Source: Dolomitihabitans soli
Lineage (GTDB): Bacteria > Actinomycetota > Actinomycetes > Streptosporangiales > Streptosporangiaceae
Reading direction: 5' to 3'
Assembly (NCBI RefSeq): GCF_022213955.1
Contig: NZ_JAKNTW010000006.1
Span: forward strand, 124,001-188,000
Length of the DNA: 64,000 nucleotides
Shown here piece after piece: positions 44,387 through 54,046 of this stretch. The notes below the pieces were generated by a model. It did not search any database, had not been told where the DNA came from, and saw only the letters and a program-made list of their open reading frames with translations. Within the stretch, counting starts at the first letter, position 1. Each line of letters starts with the position of its first letter. Position numbers and translations under genes: made by a program.

Positions 44387-46507
44387 ATGACCGACCCGAC
44401 CGATACACGCGATACCGGACCTCGCATCGGCTCACCCCTGTGGGCCTATCTAGCGGGCGTCACCACGATCGGCTTCACCGTGCTGATCGTGGCCTTGCTG
44501 GTCCTCAGCGCAGACGAGCTGACGGGCCTCGCCGCGATGCCGCTGTTCTGGGTGATCGGTGTGCTGGTCGTGCTGGGTGAGCTGCGCCCGGTCGTCGTCT
44601 CCTCCTCCGCCGTGGTCGGCGGCACCTATCCCTCGGCCATGTTCGCCTTCGCGGCGCTGCTCCACTACGGGCTCTCCGTCGCGGTGCTGCTGCAGGCCGT
44701 GGCCGTGGTGGTGAACGGCGTGGTGACCAGGAAGGCGTGGCACCGGGTGATGTTCAACATCGCCCAGGTCACCCTGGCCGGTACGGCGAGCACGGTGGTG
44801 CTCGGACTGTTCGACATCCGGCCGGGTCCCGTCACGCCCTGGGTGCCCACGGGCGGCGACCTCCTGGCGATCTGCCTCGCCGGCGGCGCCTACTTCGTGG
44901 CGCGCGCGATGCTGGTGTGCGCGGCGGTGGCGCTGCACGAGCGCCGCTCCATGTTCCGGGTGATCAGGACCACGATCGCCCACCAGAGTTTCGTCTACGC
45001 GGGGCTGCTCGGCCTCGCCCCGCTGGTCGTCGTCGTCATGGCGCACACCCCCGCCCTGGTGCCCCTCTTCGTGGCGCCGCTGGTGGCCGTCTACTTCACC
45101 GCCACCCTGTCCATGCGCCGCGACCACCAGGCCATGCACGACGGCCTCACCGGGCTGCCGAATCGCAAGCTGCTGGTGCTGCGCACCGAGGAGGCGCTCG
45201 AGGAGTCGCGCGGCGCGGAGCGGGTGGGGCTGTTCCTGCTCGACCTCGACCGGTTCAAGGAGGTCAACGACACCCTCGGCCACGCGGTGGGCGACCGGCT
45301 GCTGCAGATCGTCGCGCACCGCCTCACCCACAGCGTGCGTCCGGGCGACGTCGTCGCCCGGCTGGGCGGCGACGAGTTCGCCGTGCTGCTGCCCTCGATC
45401 AGGGACGCGGTCGCCGCGCGCGAGGTGGCCGCCAGACTCCGGGTGGCGCTCACCGAGCCGGTGCGCCTGGAGGGGATGACCTTCGACCTCGACGCCTCCG
45501 TGGGCATCGCGTTGCATCCCGACCACGCCCCCGACTTCGAGCTGTTGCTCCAGCGCGCCGACGTGGCGATGTACCTCGCGAAGGAAGGCCGCACCGGCGT
45601 GGAGCTCTACGTCGCCGGCAAGGACCGCAACTCGCCCGAGCGGCTGCATCTCCTCGGTGACCTGCGGCGTGGCCTCGACGCGGGTGAGCTCACCCTGCAC
45701 TACCAGCCCAAGGTCGGTCTGGGCACCGGGCGAGTGGTCGGGCTGGAGGCGCTGCTGCGCTGGCGGCACCCGGTCCGCGGGATGATTCCCCCTGACGACT
45801 TCATCCCCCTCGCCGAGCAGTCGTACCTGATGCGCCAGCTCACCCAGTACGTCATCGACGCCGCGCTCGAACAGGCCGCCCAGTGGTGGCACGCCGGCCT
45901 GCGCACCCCGGTCTCCGTCAACGTCTCGGCCCGCGACCTCCTCGACAACGCCCTCCCCGAACGCCTCGCCGCCGGGCTGACCCGTCACGACCTGCCCCCG
46001 ACCGCCATCCAGCTGGAGGTCACCGAGCGCATCCTGATGACCGACCAGGCGTACACCGCGGACACCGTCAGGGCGCTCGCCGCGCTCGGCGTCCCCCTCG
46101 CCCTCGACGACTTCGGGACCGGCTACTCCTCCCTGGTCAGGCTCCAGCGTCTGGCGGTCTCCGAAGTCAAGATCGACGCCTCGTTCGTGCGTCGGCTGGG
46201 CGAGTCCGGCGACGCCGACCGCATCGTGCGCTCCATCGTCGACCTGGTCCGCTCGCTCGGCCTGCGCTCGGTCGCCGAGGGAGTGGAGACCGACGAGGTG
46301 GCCAGGTCGCTGTCCGCGATGGGCTGCGACGTCGGCCAGGGCTGGTGGTTCTGTGAGGCCATGCCGTCCGCCGACGCCACCCTCTGGCTGAACGCCCGCC
46401 GTTCCCTCCTCGCCCCGGCCCAGGGGCCGCTCGGCGTCTACACCGCGGCGGGCCCCAAAGCCGCCGGCCTGCCGGACGACCTGGCCATGGTCGACACCAG
46501 AATGTAG
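44387..46507 (+). CDS. Membrane GGDEF-EAL protein, c-di-GMP turnover
   Basis: A 706-residue membrane protein with about eight helices in its first 235 residues, in the manner of MASE-type sensors. The GGDEF domain (about 245-410) is intact at ARLGGDEFAVLLPS, and the EAL domain (about 425-680) is intact at VVGLEALLRWRHP, with DDFGTGYSSL and KIDASFVRRL. It can therefore make and break c-di-GMP. ATG at 44387 is chosen because the earlier frame (from 44255) has no ribosome site and no hydrophobic sense. A gene of this type lies between ligA and gatC in Streptomyces too. Confidence 0.93.
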   Translation: MTDPTDTRDTGPRIGSPLWAYLAGVTTIGFTVLIVALLVLSADELTGLAAMPLFWVIGVLVVLGELRPVVVSSSAVVGGTYPSAMFAFAALLHYGLSVAVLLQAVAVVVNGVVTRKAWHRVMFNIAQVTLAGTASTVVLGLFDIRPGPVTPWVPTGGDLLAICLAGGAYFVARAMLVCAAVALHERRSMFRVIRTTIAHQSFVYAGLLGLAPLVVVVMAHTPALVPLFVAPLVAVYFTATLSMRRDHQAMHDGLTGLPNRKLLVLRTEEALEESRGAERVGLFLLDLDRFKEVNDTLGHAVGDRLLQIVAHRLTHSVRPGDVVARLGGDEFAVLLPSIRDAVAAREVAARLRVALTEPVRLEGMTFDLDASVGIALHPDHAPDFELLLQRADVAMYLAKEGRTGVELYVAGKDRNSPERLHLLGDLRRGLDAGELTLHYQPKVGLGTGRVVGLEALLRWRHPVRGMIPPDDFIPLAEQSYLMRQLTQYVIDAALEQAAQWWHAGLRTPVSVNVSARDLLDNALPERLAAGLTRHDLPPTAIQLEVTERILMTDQAYTADTVRALAALGVPLALDDFGTGYSSLVRLQRLAVSEVKIDASFVRRLGESGDADRIVRSIVDLVRSLGLRSVAEGVETDEVARSLSAMGCDVGQGWWFCEAMPSADATLWLNARRSLLAPAQGPLGVYTAAGPKAAGLPDDLAMVDTRM

Positions 46508-46777
46508 GAGCGCGCTGGCGGGGTGCGGGCTTCAGCCCGGTGCTCGCCGAACGGCCGGATGTCCGCACCTTCGGACTCCGGGACCGGTACGGCGAGGCCG
46601 GATGGCGACCCGTCGGGTGGACGCGCGCGCCGAATGGCGGCTCCGGCGTCGATGTCCGCGCCGGCGGGTGCGAGGTGACGCTGTGCGGTCGGCGTGCTTA
46701 TGCGTTCGGCTGGGCTGGGGGGAGCGCCCTAGGATGGCAGTGTCCAATCGCCATTGATGAAACGGGTTAAACGACTC

Positions 46778-47077
46778 ATGTCCGCCATAACCCGCGACGA
46801 GGTCGCACACCTGGCCAGGTTGTCCCGGCTGGCGCTGTCCGACGACGAACTCGATCACTACGCCACGCAGCTCGATGTGATCATCGGTTCTGTCGCCCGG
46901 GTGGCCGAGATCGCCGCTGAGGATGTCCCGCCGTCGTCGCACGCGTTGCCGCTCACCAACGTCTTCCGCCCTGATCAGGTACGGCCCGGCCTCACACCGC
47001 AACAGGCGCTCTCCGGCGCTCCGGCCGTGGAGGACGAACGCTTCCGCGTCCCGCGCATCCTCGGGGAGGAGGCATGA
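46778..47077 (+). CDS. gatC: Asp-tRNA(Asn)/Glu-tRNA(Gln) amidotransferase subunit C
   Basis: The small subunit (99 residues) that stabilises Gat[23 protein letters not shown] and the C-terminal [27 protein letters not shown] are family typical. ATG at 46778 gives the normal length; two in-frame ATGs at 46754 and 46757 would add eight residues. Its end overlaps gatA (ATGA). Confidence 0.95.
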
Positions 47078-48564
47078 GCTTGATCCACAAGAGCGCCGCC
47101 GAACTGGGCTCGCTGATCGGCAGCGGAGAGGTCTCCGCGGTCGAGGTCGCCCAGGCCCATCTCGACCGCATCACCGAGGTCGACGGCAAGCTCCACGCGT
47201 TCCTGCACGTCGGCGCCGAGTCGGCGATCGAGCAGGCCCAGGCGATCGACGACCGGATCGCGGCGGGCGACGACCTCGGCCCGCTGGCCGGCGTCCCCAT
47301 CGCGCACAAGGACGTTTTCACCACCATCGACATGCCGACCACGGCCGGCTCGAAGATCCTCCAGGGGTGGCGCCCGCCGTACGACGCGACGGTGACCCGC
47401 CGGCTGCGCGCGGCCGGGCTGGTGATCCTCGGCAAGACCAACCTCGACGAGTTCGCGATGGGCTCCTCCACGGAGAACTCGGCGTACGGCGTGACGCGCA
47501 ACCCGTGGGATCTGAGCCGGGTCCCCGGCGGTTCCTCGGGCGGGTCCAGCGCCGCGGTCGCCGGATACGCCGCGCCGCTGTCCACCGGCACCGACACGGG
47601 CGGCTCCATCCGTCAGCCGGCTTCCGTCACCGGCATCGTCGGCATGAAGCCCACCTACGGCGGTTCGTCGCGGTACGGGCTGATCGCCTTCGCCTCCTCC
47701 CTCGACACGCCGGGCCCGTTCGCCCGCAACGTGCTCGACGCGGCGCTGCTGCACGAGGCGTTCTCCGGACACGACCCGATGGACTCCACCTCGATCGACG
47801 CTCCCGTTCCCGGAGTCGTCGAGGCGGCCAGGCAGGGTGACGTGGCGGGGCTGCGGATCGGCGTGGTCAAGGAGTTCGCGGGCGAGGGCTACCAGCCGGG
47901 AGTACTGGCCCGGTTCCAGGAGTCGGTCGAACTGCTCGAATCCCTCGGTGCCAAGATCGTAGAGGTCTCCTGCCCGTCGTTCACCACCGCCCTCCCGGCG
48001 TACTACCTGATCGCGCCCTCGGAGTGCTCCTCCAACCTGGCCCGCTTCGACGCGATGCGGTACGGCCTGCGCGTCGGCGACGACGGCACCCGCAGCGCCG
48101 AGGAGGTCATGGCGCTCACCCGGGCCGCCGGTTTCGGCCCCGAGGTCAAGCGGCGCATCATGCTCGGCACCTACGCCCTGTCGAGCGGCTACTACGACGC
48201 CTACTACGGCCAGGCCCAGAAGGTCCGCACCCTCATCGCGCGCGACTTCGAAGCCGCCTTCCACCAGGTGGACGTGCTGGTCAGCCCGACCACCCCGACC
48301 ACCGCCTTCCCGATCGGCGAGCGCGCCGACGACCCGATCGCGATGTACCTCGCCGACCTGTGCACCATCCCGGCCAACCTCGCGGGCAACGCCGCCATCT
48401 CCGTCCCCTGCGGCCTCGCCGACGAGGACGGCCTCCCGGTCGGCCTGCAGATCATGGCCCCGGTCCTCGGCGACGACCGCTGCTACCGCGTCGGCGCCGC
48501 CGTCGAGCGGGCCCTGGAAGAGCGCTGGGGCGGCGGCCTGCTGTCCAAGGCGCCCACGTTGTAA
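47074..48564 (+). CDS. gatA: Asp-tRNA(Asn)/Glu-tRNA(Gln) amidotransferase subunit A
   Basis: Glutaminase/amidase subunit, 496 residues, providing ammonia to make Gln-tRNA(Gln) and Asn-tRNA(Asn). The amidase signature is present: Lys in [20 protein letters not shown], then [15 protein letters not shown] and [20 protein letters not shown] with the Ser-cisSer-Lys set. ATG at 47074 overlaps gatC. Its stop is 22 bases from an inserted ATPase gene rather than from gatB, which is unusual. Confidence 0.97.
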
Positions 48565-48586
48565 ACCGAGAGGAGGAAACGGCGGC

Positions 48587-49939
48587 ATGATCACCCGAAT
48601 CGAGATCGACGGCTTCAAGTCCTTCGCGGACTTCAGCATTGATCTGCCGCCGTTCCTCGCGGTCATCGGCACGAACGCCAGCGGCAAGTCCAATCTGTTC
48701 GATGCGTTGCGATTTCTCTCCGCGCACGTGCGTGGGGACGTGTACGACGCGGTCGATGCGGTACGCGGCGATGCTGTGGGTCTGTTCAGGCAGCTCGGAG
48801 ATGGGTCCCGGACCGACAGGATGACTTTCGGCGTCGAGTTGATCGTGGACCCGGACCGGGCGTGGGGCAGATCGGTTCCACCGGATTGGCGGCAGGCGTT
48901 CGGCACCCGGTGGCGCTACGAACTGCAGGTGACCCTTGGCAAGAACGGGCTGAAGTCCGCGGAGTCCTTCGTTCCGATGCCGAGGTCGGAGGATCGGTGG
49001 ACCGGGCTGGCCGAGGCCGATCCTGAATGGGCGGCGAAGTACGTCTCCTATATCGCCGAAGCAGGTCCACAATCCGAGCTTGTCGACGGGCTGCTGGGCG
49101 GCGAAGGCCGTCTGCGTCTCTCCCGAGCGCCTGAAGGTCCTCCCCGGCGGAGTTTTGAGACGGACGCCGAGTCCAGCGAGGACGGGCAACTGCACGACGC
49201 CGTGGTCGCCGCCGTCTATTCGTCCGTCGCCGACATCTCCGCGTTCCAGCTTGAAGATCTCGCTCTGCGTAAGTTGAGTTCCCTGCCTGCGCGTCCCGTT
49301 CTCCAGCCGAACGGAGCCGGGTTGCCCGCATATCTGGACAGCCTTCGTCAGATGAGCGCGACAGAGGAGGATCCAGCGGGGATCCTTGCGGAGATCAGGG
49401 CGGATCTGACCCGGATCGTTCGCGAGGTCATCTCGTTCGACGTCGTCGAGGACGAGGAGCGGCGGGATGTGCGCATCGTCTTCGAAGGGCGCTACACCCC
49501 CCGGTTCGGCGCGGAGGTGGCTTCTGATGGCACACTGCGGGTCCTGGCGCTCTTGAGCGTGCTGAACGATCCGGCGAAGTCGGGACTGCTCGCCATCGAG
49601 GAGCCCGAGAACGGCGTCTTTCCCGAGAGATTGCGGGAGCTGCTCACCACAATGCGCGGACTGGTGACCGATCCGGTCCGGGACGACCCGGGTTGGCCGC
49701 TGAAGCAGGTCCTGGTCACCAGCCACTCGCCTATCGTCCTCGATGCGGTTCCGCGTGCGAACATCGTTTACCTGGAGAACGTGACCCGAATCCAGCAGGA
49801 GGTCGTATCCCGCATCACTCAGGCGCGCCGCCTGGTGGAGGCGGGCCGGCCTAACCGCCTGCCAGAGGAGAAGATCTCCCGGGTGACGGAGAGCGAACTC
49901 GATCGCTTCCGCGCGGGCCGGGAGTTCACTGCCTCATGA
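48587..49939 (+). CDS. RecF/OLD-like AAA ATPase, inserted in the gat operon
   Basis: A 450-residue ABC-class/SMC-like ATPase of the AAA_15/AAA_21 type. ITRIEIDGFKSFADFSIDLP leads to Walker A GTNASGKSN (28-36). The middle is variable; late motifs are ASDGTLRVLALLSVL (signature), LAIEEPENG (Walker B) and VTSHSPIVL (switch His). No nuclease domain of its own is evident. GAGGAGG stands ten bases before the ATG. The stop overlaps the ATG of the next gene by four bases. Codons such as GAT, GTT, TTG and CGT are commoner than in gatA or gatB, in line with acquisition. Paired with a TOPRIM-like partner, it resembles two-gene phage defence systems. Confidence 0.9.
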   Translation: MITRIEIDGFKSFADFSIDLPPFLAVIGTNASGKSNLFDALRFLSAHVRGDVYDAVDAVRGDAVGLFRQLGDGSRTDRMTFGVELIVDPDRAWGRSVPPDWRQAFGTRWRYELQVTLGKNGLKSAESFVPMPRSEDRWTGLAEADPEWAAKYVSYIAEAGPQSELVDGLLGGEGRLRLSRAPEGPPRRSFETDAESSEDGQLHDAVVAAVYSSVADISAFQLEDLALRKLSSLPARPVLQPNGAGLPAYLDSLRQMSATEEDPAGILAEIRADLTRIVREVISFDVVEDEERRDVRIVFEGRYTPRFGAEVASDGTLRVLALLSVLNDPAKSGLLAIEEPENGVFPERLRELLTTMRGLVTDPVRDDPGWPLKQVLVTSHSPIVLDAVPRANIVYLENVTRIQQEVVSRITQARRLVEAGRPNRLPEEKISRVTESELDRFRAGREFTAS

Positions 49940-50589
49940 GATGCCTGCAATCGGTCATCATCTGCGAGGGGCCCTCGGATGAATGGTTCCTCCCCGTGCT
50001 GCTACAGCGGGCGATGGACCTACTCTGCCTGGAGACCTTTCCCGGAGATGTCGACGTCAGAGATGTCCGGGTGCTGGCTGCCGACCACCAGCGGCCGGAG
50101 GCTCTCGCCGCTACGGCGACGCGTGAACATGGCGCGTTCGACGTGTTGTTCTACCACCATGACGGGTTTCCCAGCAGGACGGCCGCGGACAAGATCGAGG
50201 CTGTGCGTCAGGCGCTGAGCCTCGTGGGGGTCAGGGAGGCGTTTGTCCCTGTTGTTCCGGTGATGGAGACCGAAGCGTGGATCCTCGCCGACCCCGAAAC
50301 CCTGGCGATGGTGCTCTCCGTTCCGGTCGAGAAGGTCAGGGCGTTACTCCCGGCGCAGCCGAAGCTGGTAGAGCGCAGGTCCGAACCCAAAGAACTGTTG
50401 CGGCTGGTGATGCGCACCCTCGTACGGCGTCACCGGCGTGCCAGGCCGGACGGTCACGATGTCGAACGTTATTTCAGCGAACTCGCGGAGAACGTCAACA
50501 TAGGTCTGTTGCGGGAGGTGCCCGCGTTCGCTGAATGGTGGAGGGCGATGACGCAGGCCATGGAACGGCTCGGCTTCCGGCATGGGTGA
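49936..50589 (+). CDS. DUF4276 family protein, TOPRIM-like partner of the ATPase
   Basis: A 217-residue protein. LQSVIICEGPSDEWFLPVLLQ gives the Glu of a TOPRIM-like strand-loop (EGxxD), DVLFYHHDGFPSR gives an acidic pair in the next strand, and VVPVMETEAWILADPETLA a third acidic cluster, the usual pattern of DUF4276. TOPRIM-type proteins of this class are suspected nucleases. The reading overlaps the ATPase stop by four bases, so the two are made together. It ends 69 bases before gatB. The assignment to DUF4276 is from memory of the motif; nuclease activity is inference. Confidence 0.82.
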   Translation: MRCLQSVIICEGPSDEWFLPVLLQRAMDLLCLETFPGDVDVRDVRVLAADHQRPEALAATATREHGAFDVLFYHHDGFPSRTAADKIEAVRQALSLVGVREAFVPVVPVMETEAWILADPETLAMVLSVPVEKVRALLPAQPKLVERRSEPKELLRLVMRTLVRRHRRARPDGHDVERYFSELAENVNIGLLREVPAFAEWWRAMTQAMERLGFRHG

Positions 50590-50657
50590 TCCCTTCGCCG
50601 TAGTGGGAGCTTGCTCTGCTGATACTTATAGACACATGAGAAGTGGTGAGATATCTG

Positions 50658-52163
50658 ATGAGCACTGAGACGCTCATGCCGTATGACGAGGCGCTGGAGC
50701 GCTTTGAGCCGGTGCTGGGGCTGGAGACGCACGTCGAGCTGGGGACCGCGTCGAAGATGTTCTGCGGTTGCCCGACGGGGTTCGGGGCGGCGGCGAACAC
50801 TCAGGTGTGCCCGGTCTGCCTGGCGTTGCCGGGGTCGTTGCCGGTGGCCAACGAGATGGCGATCGAGTCGACGATCCGGATCGGGCTGGCGCTCAACTGC
50901 TCGATCGCCTCGTGGTGCCGGTTCGCCCGGAAGAACTACTTCTATCCGGACATGCCGAAGAACTACCAGATCAGCCAGTATGACGAGCCGCTGTGCGTGG
51001 ACGGCTACCTCGACATCGAGATCGAGGGGAAGACGGTCAGGATCGGCATCGAGCGGGTCCACCTGGAGGAGGACACCGGCAAGTCCACGCACGTGGGCGG
51101 CGCGACCGGGCGTATCCAGGGAGCCGACTACTCGATCGTCGACTACAACCGGGCGGGGATCCCGCTGGTGGAGATCGTCACCAGGCCGGTCGAGGGCACC
51201 GACAGGCTCGCGCCCGAGATCGCCAAGGCGTACGCCACGGAGCTGCGTGAGGTCATGCGCTCCCTGGGAGTCTCCGATGTGCGCATGGAGGAGGGCTCCA
51301 TGCGGTGCGACGTGAACGTCTCGCTGATGCCGCGCGGCACGACCGAGTGGGGCACCCGTACCGAGACCAAGAACGTCAACTCGCTGCGTTCGATCGAGCG
51401 ATCCGTGCGGCACGAGATCGAGCGGCAGGCCGCGATCCTCGCCGACGGCGGCCGGATCATCCAGGAGACCCGCCACTTCCACGAGGACACCGGGACCACC
51501 ACCGCGGGACGGTCGAAGGAGGAGGCGCAGGACTACCGCTACTTCCCCGAGCCCGACCTCGTGCCGATCGCGCCGGACCCGGCGTGGGTGGCGAAGCTGA
51601 AGGCGGAGCTTCCCGAGCTGCCCGGCGCCAGGCGCAGCCGGCTGCAGCGCGAGTGGGGCGTGTCCGACCTCGACATGGCCGCGATGCACAACGCCGACGC
51701 GGTCGATCTCGTCGAGGCCACGGTGGCGGCCGGCGCGCCGCCCGCCGACGCGCGCAAGTGGTGGATGGGCGAGCTGGCCCGCCGCGCCAACGAGTCGGGT
51801 ACGGCTCTCGCCGCGCTGCCGATCACGCCCGACCAGATCGCCAGGGTGTGCGCGATGGTCGCCGGCGGCGCGCTGAACGACAAGCTGGCCCGCCAGGTGC
51901 TGGAGGGCGTGCTCGAAGGCGAGGGCTCTCCCGACGAGGTCGTCTCGGCGCGCGGCCTGCAGATCGTGAACGACCAGGGTGAGCTGTCGGCGATCATCGA
52001 ACAGGTGCTGGCCGACAACTCGGACGCCGCGGACAAGGTACGCGGTGGCAAGATCGCCGCTGTCGGCGCCCTCGTCGGCGGCGTCATGAAGGCCAGCCGC
52101 GGCAAGGCCGACGCCGGCCGCGCCCGCGAGCTCATCCTGCAGAAGCTGGGCGTCTCCGAGTAA
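50658..52163 (+). CDS. gatB: Asp-tRNA(Asn)/Glu-tRNA(Gln) amidotransferase subunit B
   Basis: The tRNA-binding, kinase-like subunit, 501 residues. [39 protein letters not shown] and [12 protein letters not shown] are the catalytic-domain markers; [11 protein letters not shown] and a C-terminal YqeY-like domain follow. The ATG at 50658 gives the normal N-terminus; 50643 is the alternative. The ribosome site is weak (GTGGTGAG), perhaps because insertion of the ATPase pair moved it away from gatA. The last codons, GGC GTC TCC GAG TAA, seed the repeats that follow. Confidence 0.97.
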
Positions 52164-52440
52164 CCGAGAGGCCATCCCGGCTCTTACCGGCCGCGCCCGC
52201 GGGTGGCGTCTCCAAGTAACCGAGACGCCACCGGGCCCGTCCGCAGGTGGCGTCTCTGAGTAACCGAGAGGCCATCCCGGCTCTTACCGGCCGCGCCCGC
52301 GGGTGGCGTCTCCGAGCAACTGAGACGCCACCCGGCCCGTCCGCAGGTGGCGTCTCTGAGTAACCGAGGCGCCACCCCGGTTCGTACCGGTCGGCCGTGC
52401 CCGGTTGGCGTCTTCGAGTAACCAGAGACGCCGACCCCGG
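52149..52440. repeat. Hairpin-forming tandem repeats copied from the gatB 3' end
   Basis: The end of gatB (GGCGTCTCCGAGTAACCGAG, from 52149) is repeated with small changes at 52205, 52249, 52305, 52349 and about 52407. The larger period is exactly 100 bases (52149/52249 and 52202/52302). Several copies form strong hairpins: GGTGGCGTCTC at 52202-52212 pairs with GAGACGCCACC at 52222-52232 around a nine-base loop, and 52302-52312 pairs with 52322-52332. They probably act as a row of terminators between gatB and the converging tctA. Confidence 0.85.
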
Positions 52441-52477
52441 CCCATATCCGGTCGCGTCCGCGGGGTCGCCTGCCTCT

Positions 52478-52512
52478 CGGGCGCGGATCCGGCGAGCTCG
52501 GATCCGCGCCCG
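52478..52512. terminator. Hairpin between converging gatB and tctA
   Basis: CGGGCGCGGATCC (52478-52490) and GGATCCGCGCCCG (52500-52512) give a perfect 13-bp stem with a nine-base loop, 26 bases past the tctA stop. Confidence 0.75.
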
Positions 52513-52537
52513 TCTGGTCACCTGGGCGGGCTCGGGC

Positions 52538-54046
<1,509 letters not shown>

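Follow-up and report, generated by a model that had tools for sequence, protein, structure and literature searches.

A HEC-01-type ATPase and DUF4276 gene pair between gatA and gatB: a candidate immune cassette in the Gln-tRNA operon of actinomycetes

Searches for immune genes usually concentrate on mobile elements and defence islands. What, then, might explain two genes resembling a catalogued defence candidate between gatA and gatB, in the middle of the gatCAB operon? The question is raised by a 64,000-nucleotide stretch of the Dolomitihabitans soli genome (contig NZ_JAKNTW010000006.1; hereafter the window), in which an ATPase gene (48587..49939, + strand; protein P0001, 450 aa) and a gene for a small DUF4276 protein (49936..50589, + strand; protein P0002, 217 aa) lie between gatA and gatB. 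We propose, with a probability of roughly 0.57, that the pair is a two-gene immune cassette of the HEC-01 type that has a dedicated gatA-gatB address in actinomycetes. The protein pair is known as the catalogued candidate HEC-01, and what is new is its genomic life style in a housekeeping operon.

The identity of both genes can be read from the sequence. The ATPase matches the PADLOC model HEC-01A (PDLC04184, 2.4e-104) with residues 1-442 of 450 aligned to positions 1-457 of the 464-position profile, and it is matched by Pfam AAA_21 (2.1e-23) and AAA_15. P0002 matches HEC-01B (PDLC04210, 6.6e-48) across residues 1-215 of 217, as well as Pfam DUF4276 (PF14103; 3.4e-11, 44.2 bits against a cut-off of 30.2), and a second DUF4276 match above the cut-off (38.8 bits) is found elsewhere in the same genome (L002, G000:C3:166019-166387, - strand). 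The same two HEC-01 models match 73/73 ATPases and 70/70 DUF4276 proteins aligned. These nearly end-to-end matches agree with the original prediction, made from the DNA letters, of an ATPase with a DUF4276 or TOPRIM-like partner, and the Walker A, signature, Walker B and switch His motifs that it had read as intact are so. Its suggestion of an uncharacterised defence module holds in part: the HEC-01A/B matches, together with a structural similarity to an OLD nuclease domain that is not decisive, provide a defence lead, but the module is already a catalogued candidate.

All ATPase motifs lie on the + strand and include Walker A GTNASGKSN (residues 28-36; 48668..48694), the ABC-type signature SDGTLR (313-318; 49523..49540), the Walker B region LLAIEEPE (334-341; 49586..49609) and the switch residue His380 (49724..49726). 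GKS (33-35), S313/G315, EE338-339 and H380 are identical in all 91 aligned ATPases, that is, in 35/35 gat-embedded and 56/56 other rows. The remaining signature positions vary, with D314 replaced by E in 19 other rows, T316 differing in two gat rows, and L317 differing in one gat row and three other rows. The structural model (predicted local distance difference test, pLDDT, 91.8) has Septu PtuA and retron-Eco7 as its top Foldseek matches in the PDB (both 8.9e-13), and VIA-align ranks SMC and Rad50 heads highest, with Z up to 23.1 compared with 20.0 for the first PtuA match. Neither PARIS nor full-length OLD occurs among the 50 VIA-align matches listed, an absence that is uninformative. Sequence search of P0001 against the PDB gave matches to the P-loop region only, mainly to SMC and Rad50.

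The partner protein displays an acidic pattern resembling that of TOPRIM nucleases, again on the + strand throughout. A TOPRIM-type first acidic motif, E11-G12-x-x-D15 (49966..49980), has E11 in 48/48 non-gat rows with a letter there and in 34/34 gat rows. It is followed by H74-x-D76 (50155..50163), where TOPRIM has DxD (D76 in 49/49 non-gat and 29/34 gat rows), by E113 in an ETEAW motif (50272..50274; E in 49/49 and 33/34 rows, respectively), and by K152 (50389..50391; K in 49/49 and 28/34), a candidate counterpart of the OLD catalytic Lys. The two-metal set of Class 2 OLD proteins comprises E400, E404, D457 and E508 with K562 (PMC6755086), and E11/D15/D76/E113/K152 of DUF4276 may parallel this set, the residues being paired by order and spacing and not by superposition. 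As D76 and K152 are retained in 49/49 non-gat rows, we therefore label the protein TOPRIM-like with a putative HxD second motif. Pfam OLD-like_TOPRIM matches P0002 at 0.033, and no sequence homologue was found in the PDB at E up to 1. For the structural model (pLDDT 92.8), the longest alignments listed by VIA-align are those to OLD C-terminal domains (6njv, Z 8.0; 6nk8, Z 7.8), which span 170-171 residues at a root-mean-square deviation of 4.6-4.7, with other alpha/beta folds at similar Z.

The fixed address of the pair emerges when 120 relatives, 72 of them from the same family, are compared by their coordinates of ATPase, GatB and GatA. Here, 16/72 carry the pair on the gat strand between gatA and gatB, 34/72 have short gatA-gatB gaps not longer than about 300 bp (33 were read; that of G014, 20 bp, is known by coordinates only), and 19/72 have long gaps with other genes. 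Three family relatives (G019, G020, G053) were not assessable, so that the junction is without the pair in 53 of the 69 assessable ones. Two of the same-family carriers deviate in layout, G034 having a tandem double pair and G004 a fused pair; natural ATPase-DUF4276 fusions were seen in G004/L112 and G160 only, among the loci read.

This survey corrects one premise of the original prediction, that gatA and gatB are normally adjacent, since they lie more than 1.7 kb apart in 35/69 assessable family relatives. The same prediction would have been refuted by a core gene, present in all relatives with normal codon bias; instead, 16/72 carry the pair, and others have lost or swapped it. It was accurate in describing two same-strand genes with a four-base overlap that split gatA from gatB, and in describing codon use less GC-biased than in the gat genes, as G+C content at third codon positions (GC3) is 0.79 for the ATPase and 0.78 for DUF4276 versus 0.95 for both gatA and gatB. 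Yet the low GC3 of the window pair is not general, and five type D carriers (L063-L067) have ATPase GC3 values of 0.93-0.98.

Beyond the family, a scan of named genomes used patterns made from gat-resident sequences and considered the best 80 loci, and is thus not a measure of prevalence. The order gatC-gatA-ATPase-DUF4276-gatB is retained in 23 of these 80, namely 12 Streptosporangiaceae, 5 Micromonosporaceae, 3 Pseudonocardiaceae, Kitasatospora, Actinoallomurus and one unclassified metagenome-assembled genome (MAG), spanning five actinomycete families plus the MAG. In Micromonosporaceae L124-L126 an additional 1.9-4.1 kb lies between the pair and gatB, and L130 has a DUF4276 open reading frame (ORF) shortened to 77 aa. 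One actinomycete locus of the 80 (L123) and all 56 loci from other phyla have a non-gat location. In an even draw across the class, the ATPase was matched at 1e-20 or better in 37/394 genomes, lying just upstream of gatB in 14 (all from the window's family), just after gatB in one (G370) and elsewhere in 22; G368, among the 14, has a second copy elsewhere. Family f15 was matched in 0/5 genomes and f19 in 4/35, numbers that allow no inference for Micromonosporaceae or Pseudonocardiaceae.

Short gaps may preserve traces of lost pairs, and such scars are found in 6/33 short gaps read (G033, G038, G009, G039, G050, G065). The 101-bp gap of G033, a genome with a GatB almost the same as in Herbidospora cretacea, joins the five opening ATPase codons (MITRI) to the final codons of DUF4276, with the gatB start still overlapped by these final codons. 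In G038 (L049), the 3' end of GatA has gained a short DUF4276 tail, KAPALEGLGYQHG, apparently as a result of losing the pair by deletion. G009, G039, G050 and G065 still show identifiable pieces of the start or the tail. The scar pattern was written after seeing the gaps and fits five of the six scars, G009 being judged by eye, and the GatA end of G036 also fits it and was left uncounted, as it aligns with GatA's own tail. As background, tail-like peptides occurred in 29/32,000 random 100-bp pieces of locus DNA, real copies included. Because the pair has been lost repeatedly while gatCAB stays, it is dispensable for GatCAB function.

The gat-resident ATPases also group together. A tree of 91 ATPases has one branch (support 97/84, 94% of bootstraps) that separates the 35 gat-resident rows from all others, and shuffled gat labels need 28.4 changes. 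Enlarging the tree with four non-gat actinomycete ATPases and more alleles (22 of the 56 non-gat rows being used) places 42 rows, 41 gat-resident plus G370, on one side (98/95, 98%). The class survey had 14 junction-linked genomes; 13 of them were placed in this tree, and every one lies inside the gat clade. The gat-linked copy of G368 is in no tree. L181, an open ORF, was dropped, the fusions L112 and G160 were trimmed at residues 465 and 425, and six G rows duplicating named loci were omitted. Gat-resident ATPases from several actinomycete families thus form a single clade among the sampled rows. Within it, the Kitasatospora ATPase groups with those of Nonomuraea and Sinosporangium, a placement in which transfer can be seen. 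When 30 carriers and 15 non-carriers are placed on a GatB tree, the carrier label needs 11 changes against a shuffled mean of 12.8 (69/500 shuffles as low), and presence is therefore patchy; the rows are not a random draw, and L124/L125 (gatB cut at the locus end) and G037 and G060 (gatB missing from the data) were omitted.

Allele exchange at the junction is most evident in g65, a genus by automated label, which displays a short pair type (G064, G211, G360) and two long types (in G160 and in G231). DNA identity between G360 and G160 is 97.9% in the gatA stretch, 49.5% in the pair and 95.1% in the gatB stretch; the corresponding values are 94.8%, 48.0% and 92.6% for G360 versus G231, and 95.4%, 52.5% and 93.3% for G160 versus G231. 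As a yardstick, G360 and G211, which have the same type, are 97.2%, 85.0% and 96.4% identical. In 100-bp blocks compared with Microbispora rosea L110, identity shifts sharply at the ATPase start and at gatB, and these patterns show a cassette swap with sharp edges between conserved gatA and gatB stretches. Exchange may also affect parts of the cassette. Between G064 and G360, ATPase identity in successive 40-aa windows runs 0.93, 0.70, 0.38, 0.17, 0.80, 0.85, 0.95, 0.97, 0.93 and 0.97, and the DUF4276 and GatB partners are 92% and 96% identical. G064 versus G211 and Herbidospora L105 versus L108 likewise have a variable ATPase middle and conserved ends, and together with column conservation these window identities define a hypervariable middle at residues about 80-200 (48824..49186, + strand), which we propose as the sensor region. 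In Winogradskya L124/L125, the synonymous divergence (dS) is 0.62 in the ATPase versus 0.08 in both DUF4276 and gatA, which suggests recombinational replacement. DUF4276 is not always the better conserved partner, and in some pairs, the window versus L103 among them, its conservation does not exceed that of the ATPase. Among nine non-gat close pairs, the middle minimum was 0.57, windows near the C-terminus reached 0.50 and one short end window 0.25, and where both partners were known, DUF4276 was less conserved than the ATPase in 6/7.

In the window itself the pair fits its operon closely. Upstream lie gatC (46778..47077, + strand; Pfam GatC 1.1e-18; its likely start is an ATG in a frame that opens at 46754) and gatA (47074..48564, + strand; Pfam Amidase 1.3e-156). 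A 22-bp spacer with a ribosome-binding-like GAGGAGG (48565..48586, + strand), similar to spacers at other carriers' junctions, leads from the gatA stop to the ATPase, and the pair, on the same strand as the gat genes, is followed by gatB (50658..52163, + strand; ATG start, with an in-frame GTG upstream at 50643; Pfam GatB_N 3.8e-112 and GatB_Yqey 2.7e-41). All three gat genes are intact by their profile matches. No terminator-like site was found in 46500-52600 (shuffles mean 1.5), which is weak evidence that the pair may be co-transcribed with gatCAB. The source genome is 10.8 Mb, and its closest named relatives by the ATPase tree are Streptosporangiaceae. The curated model of glutaminyl-tRNA synthetase (GlnRS) stays below its cut-off in this genome (63 vs 425.8 bits) and scores above it in 4/14 control genomes; because of this missing match, GatCAB is likely the only source of Gln-tRNA here, and gatCAB is probably essential.

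Several known systems resemble the pair without being identical to it. The best PDB matches of the ATPase model by Foldseek, PtuA of Septu and of a retron, differ in their partner, as PtuA works with PtuB, an HNH nuclease, whereas the window partner is a DUF4276 protein. Septu cleaves tRNA-Tyr (PMC13096335). HEC-01 itself is closest, as both window proteins match one subtype almost end to end in the shared order of ATPase and DUF4276. HEC stands for Hma-embedded candidate, and PMC12988326 describes how these candidates were catalogued through their embedding in other defence systems, unlike the window pair with its fixed housekeeping-operon address. Several HECs, HEC-06 included, were tested according to that paper, and no activity report on HEC-01 itself was found in the literature searched; PMC12724379 names it once, and no mention was found in PMC8565338. 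MAD3/MAD4 of the methylation-associated defence system (MADS) are proteins of the same kinds, but the window scores (111.7 bits for NCBIfam MAD3 and 27.3 for MAD4) are far under the curated cut-offs of 420 and 160, and the window has no further genes between gatA and gatB. OLD proteins (Class 2, Gabija GajA type) may share the ATPase and TOPRIM combination and the acidic/Lys residue pattern (PMC6755086). However, OLD is one polypeptide, while the window pair is two chains with HxD for DxD and belongs to other sequence families, and the next gene is a helicase in OLD/Gabija and gatB in the window; the one-chain fusions of L112 and G160 recall the OLD layout. Finally, PARIS couples the AriA ATPase with the TOPRIM tRNase AriB, which PMC12409363 describes as a two-metal nuclease cleaving tRNAs. 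The pair would have in common with PARIS the coupling of an ATPase to a two-metal TOPRIM nuclease, and the AriA model matches the window ATPase at 1.8e-24, but AriB models do not match P0002, for which HEC-01B and PDC-M25B were the only models at E up to 1.

By analogy with OLD/Gabija and PARIS, where an ATPase regulates a TOPRIM-like nuclease, we propose the following mechanism. The SMC/Rad50/PtuA-like ATPase would act as sensor and regulator, its exchangeable middle recognising a trigger, and upon recognition it would activate DUF4276, an OLD/M5-like TOPRIM nuclease effector. The activated effector would cut nucleic acid, either DNA or tRNA, and thereby stop the infected cell or its phage. 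The pair is translated within the gatCAB operon and may be expressed constitutively along with gatCAB. New versions may arrive when the conserved gatA and gatB flanks recombine homologously, and internal deletions that spare gatB may remove the pair when it becomes costly.

A number of observations weigh against the pair being an immune cassette of this kind. The fold match of DUF4276 is weak, as the best Foldseek E is 7e-3 with none at 1e-3, and the OLD Z of 8.0 is exceeded by an Ago MID domain (Z 9.2, with about 120 residues aligned). D76 and K152 are lost in five gat rows (G058, G044, G070, G005, G015) in which both ORFs are retained, a sub-clade that may reflect either decay or a non-catalytic role; K152 is also lost in L126, and the G160 fusion is without the DUF4276 start bearing E11. 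Not every allele pair has the hypervariable middle, as G070/G005 and G058/G221 are without a deep dip, and positive selection was not seen, as pairwise ratios of nonsynonymous to synonymous divergence (dN/dS) were 0.04-0.48 for both genes in the pairs measured and purifying selection appears to dominate in both. Near 23 non-gat relatives, 131 ORFs yielded matches to 23 PADLOC models at 1e-20, each to one ORF and of four kinds by name (Cas3-type, PDC-S57, PDC-M72A, Ankyrin); the non-gat relatives of the subtype thus do not appear to lie in obvious defence islands, as judged with a simple ORF caller and at most six nearby ORFs per locus, some possibly spurious. Lastly, tblastn with P0002 found no match in plasmid or phage collections at 1e-5. 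A viral contig scan with an alignment-derived pattern gave three weak loci (27-46% identity over short stretches), and Foldseek of DUF4276 against viral structures gave nothing at 1e-3. Given the empty tblastn search and the weak viral loci, phage or plasmid cargo is not supported.

Two simple explanations can be set aside. A core gene or GatCAB subunit is ruled out by patchy presence, swaps and deletion scars, and a recent one-off insertion in the window's genome by the same junction carrying the pair in many genera. Another explanation derives the location in gatCAB from the function of the pair, whose trigger or target would be the GatCAB/Gln-tRNA pathway; DUF4276 might cleave tRNA-Gln, for instance, or the ATPase might monitor GatCAB or misacylated Glu-tRNA-Gln. 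Such a guard would account for one clade keeping to a single tRNA operon in several actinomycete families, for the gat-clade ATPase directly after gatB in G370, and for the choice of an operon that is the likely sole Gln-tRNA route (GlnRS 63 vs 425.8 bits), and tRNA cleavage by PARIS AriB (PMC12409363) and Septu (PMC13096335) offers precedents. We nonetheless rank it lower, since six scars record the loss of the pair from genomes that keep gatCAB; moreover, 0/56 other-phyla loci among the best 80 lie in gat, and unrelated genes also occupy the junction, so that functional coupling of this kind appears unlikely. Joining it to the immune cassette gives a bolder proposal, in which a single dedicated immune locus resides in the essential Gln-tRNA operon, gatA and gatB serve a gat-resident HEC-01 lineage as the route for exchanging both sensor middles and entire sensor/nuclease alleles, and the effector acts on, or the sensor watches, GatCAB/tRNA-Gln, the operon being both address and bait; this we consider quite unlikely.

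Conversely, the gatA-gatB junction may simply tolerate insertions, with the pair one of several passengers and without any special address. Long gaps without the pair in 19/72 relatives, the thioester-domain proteins found there and a phosphofructokinase in G079 are what such tolerance predicts. Against this stand the gat-resident ATPases, which form one clade apart from same-class relatives elsewhere and include 13/13 junction-linked class genomes in the tree, and the strand of the pair, which in the loci read follows the gat genes with the two genes usually overlapping; a mere passenger is thus clearly improbable. It might also be asked whether the pair serves defence at all, as an SMC/Rad50-like ATPase with a TOPRIM partner could act in DNA repair or regulation and bring a conditional benefit. 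The SMC and Rad50 heads as best VIA-align neighbours (Z up to 23.1), the few defence neighbours of non-gat relatives and the purifying dN/dS are compatible with this, but a repair enzyme would hardly be expected to be patchy, to be swapped as a whole cassette within a genus, to vary so strongly in its middle and to be deleted repeatedly, and the nearest catalogued models are HEC-01 and MAD3/MAD4, making a role outside defence very improbable. An HEC-01-type immune cassette at a dedicated gatA-gatB address is hence the reading that we prefer.

The junction and its surroundings hold other genes as well, and strict gatCAB adjacency is broken in several families of the class. In the 19 long-gap family relatives, opposite-strand thioester-domain (TED) proteins were found in both loci tested (three proteins). 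TED genes of the gatA-gatB interval, sometimes two in a row and in another part of the family, lie at L083:386-1615, L083:2398-3624, L082:329-2026 and L078:2002-3228, all on the - strand, and Pfam TED matched 4/4 proteins. The interval of G079 holds a phosphofructokinase gene (L099:255-1286, + strand; Pfam PFK 5.5e-108), and G106 has an ORF (L102:2006-3049, - strand) that resembles the phosphofructokinase gene by its start only. Directly after gatB, G002 encodes a different low-GC3 ATPase and DUF4276 pair of the 'VEGHGE' type (L232:3553-5415, - strand; 410 + 201 aa), a further lineage of such pairs next to gatB, and G370 has a lone gat-clade ATPase of 426 aa (L231:2251-3528) with no adjoining DUF4276 ORF seen. 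Among non-gat loci, L188 (G275) and L189 (G202) have interrupted ATPase frames that are 48-55% identical to the cyanobacterial member L119.

DUF4276 appears in no paper of the literature searched, and nothing relevant was found there on a link between the gat operon and defence, most subscription papers and bioRxiv preprints being outside that coverage. If the pair protects against phage, it would represent an immune module addressed in a probably essential housekeeping operon. Natural empty sites, deletion scars and an allelic series are already present in sequenced Streptosporangiaceae, and they make testable how immune alleles may be exchanged without an evident mobile element, what the hypervariable ATPase middle senses and which role DUF4276 plays. 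Genome mining for immune genes should, in that case, include core operons.

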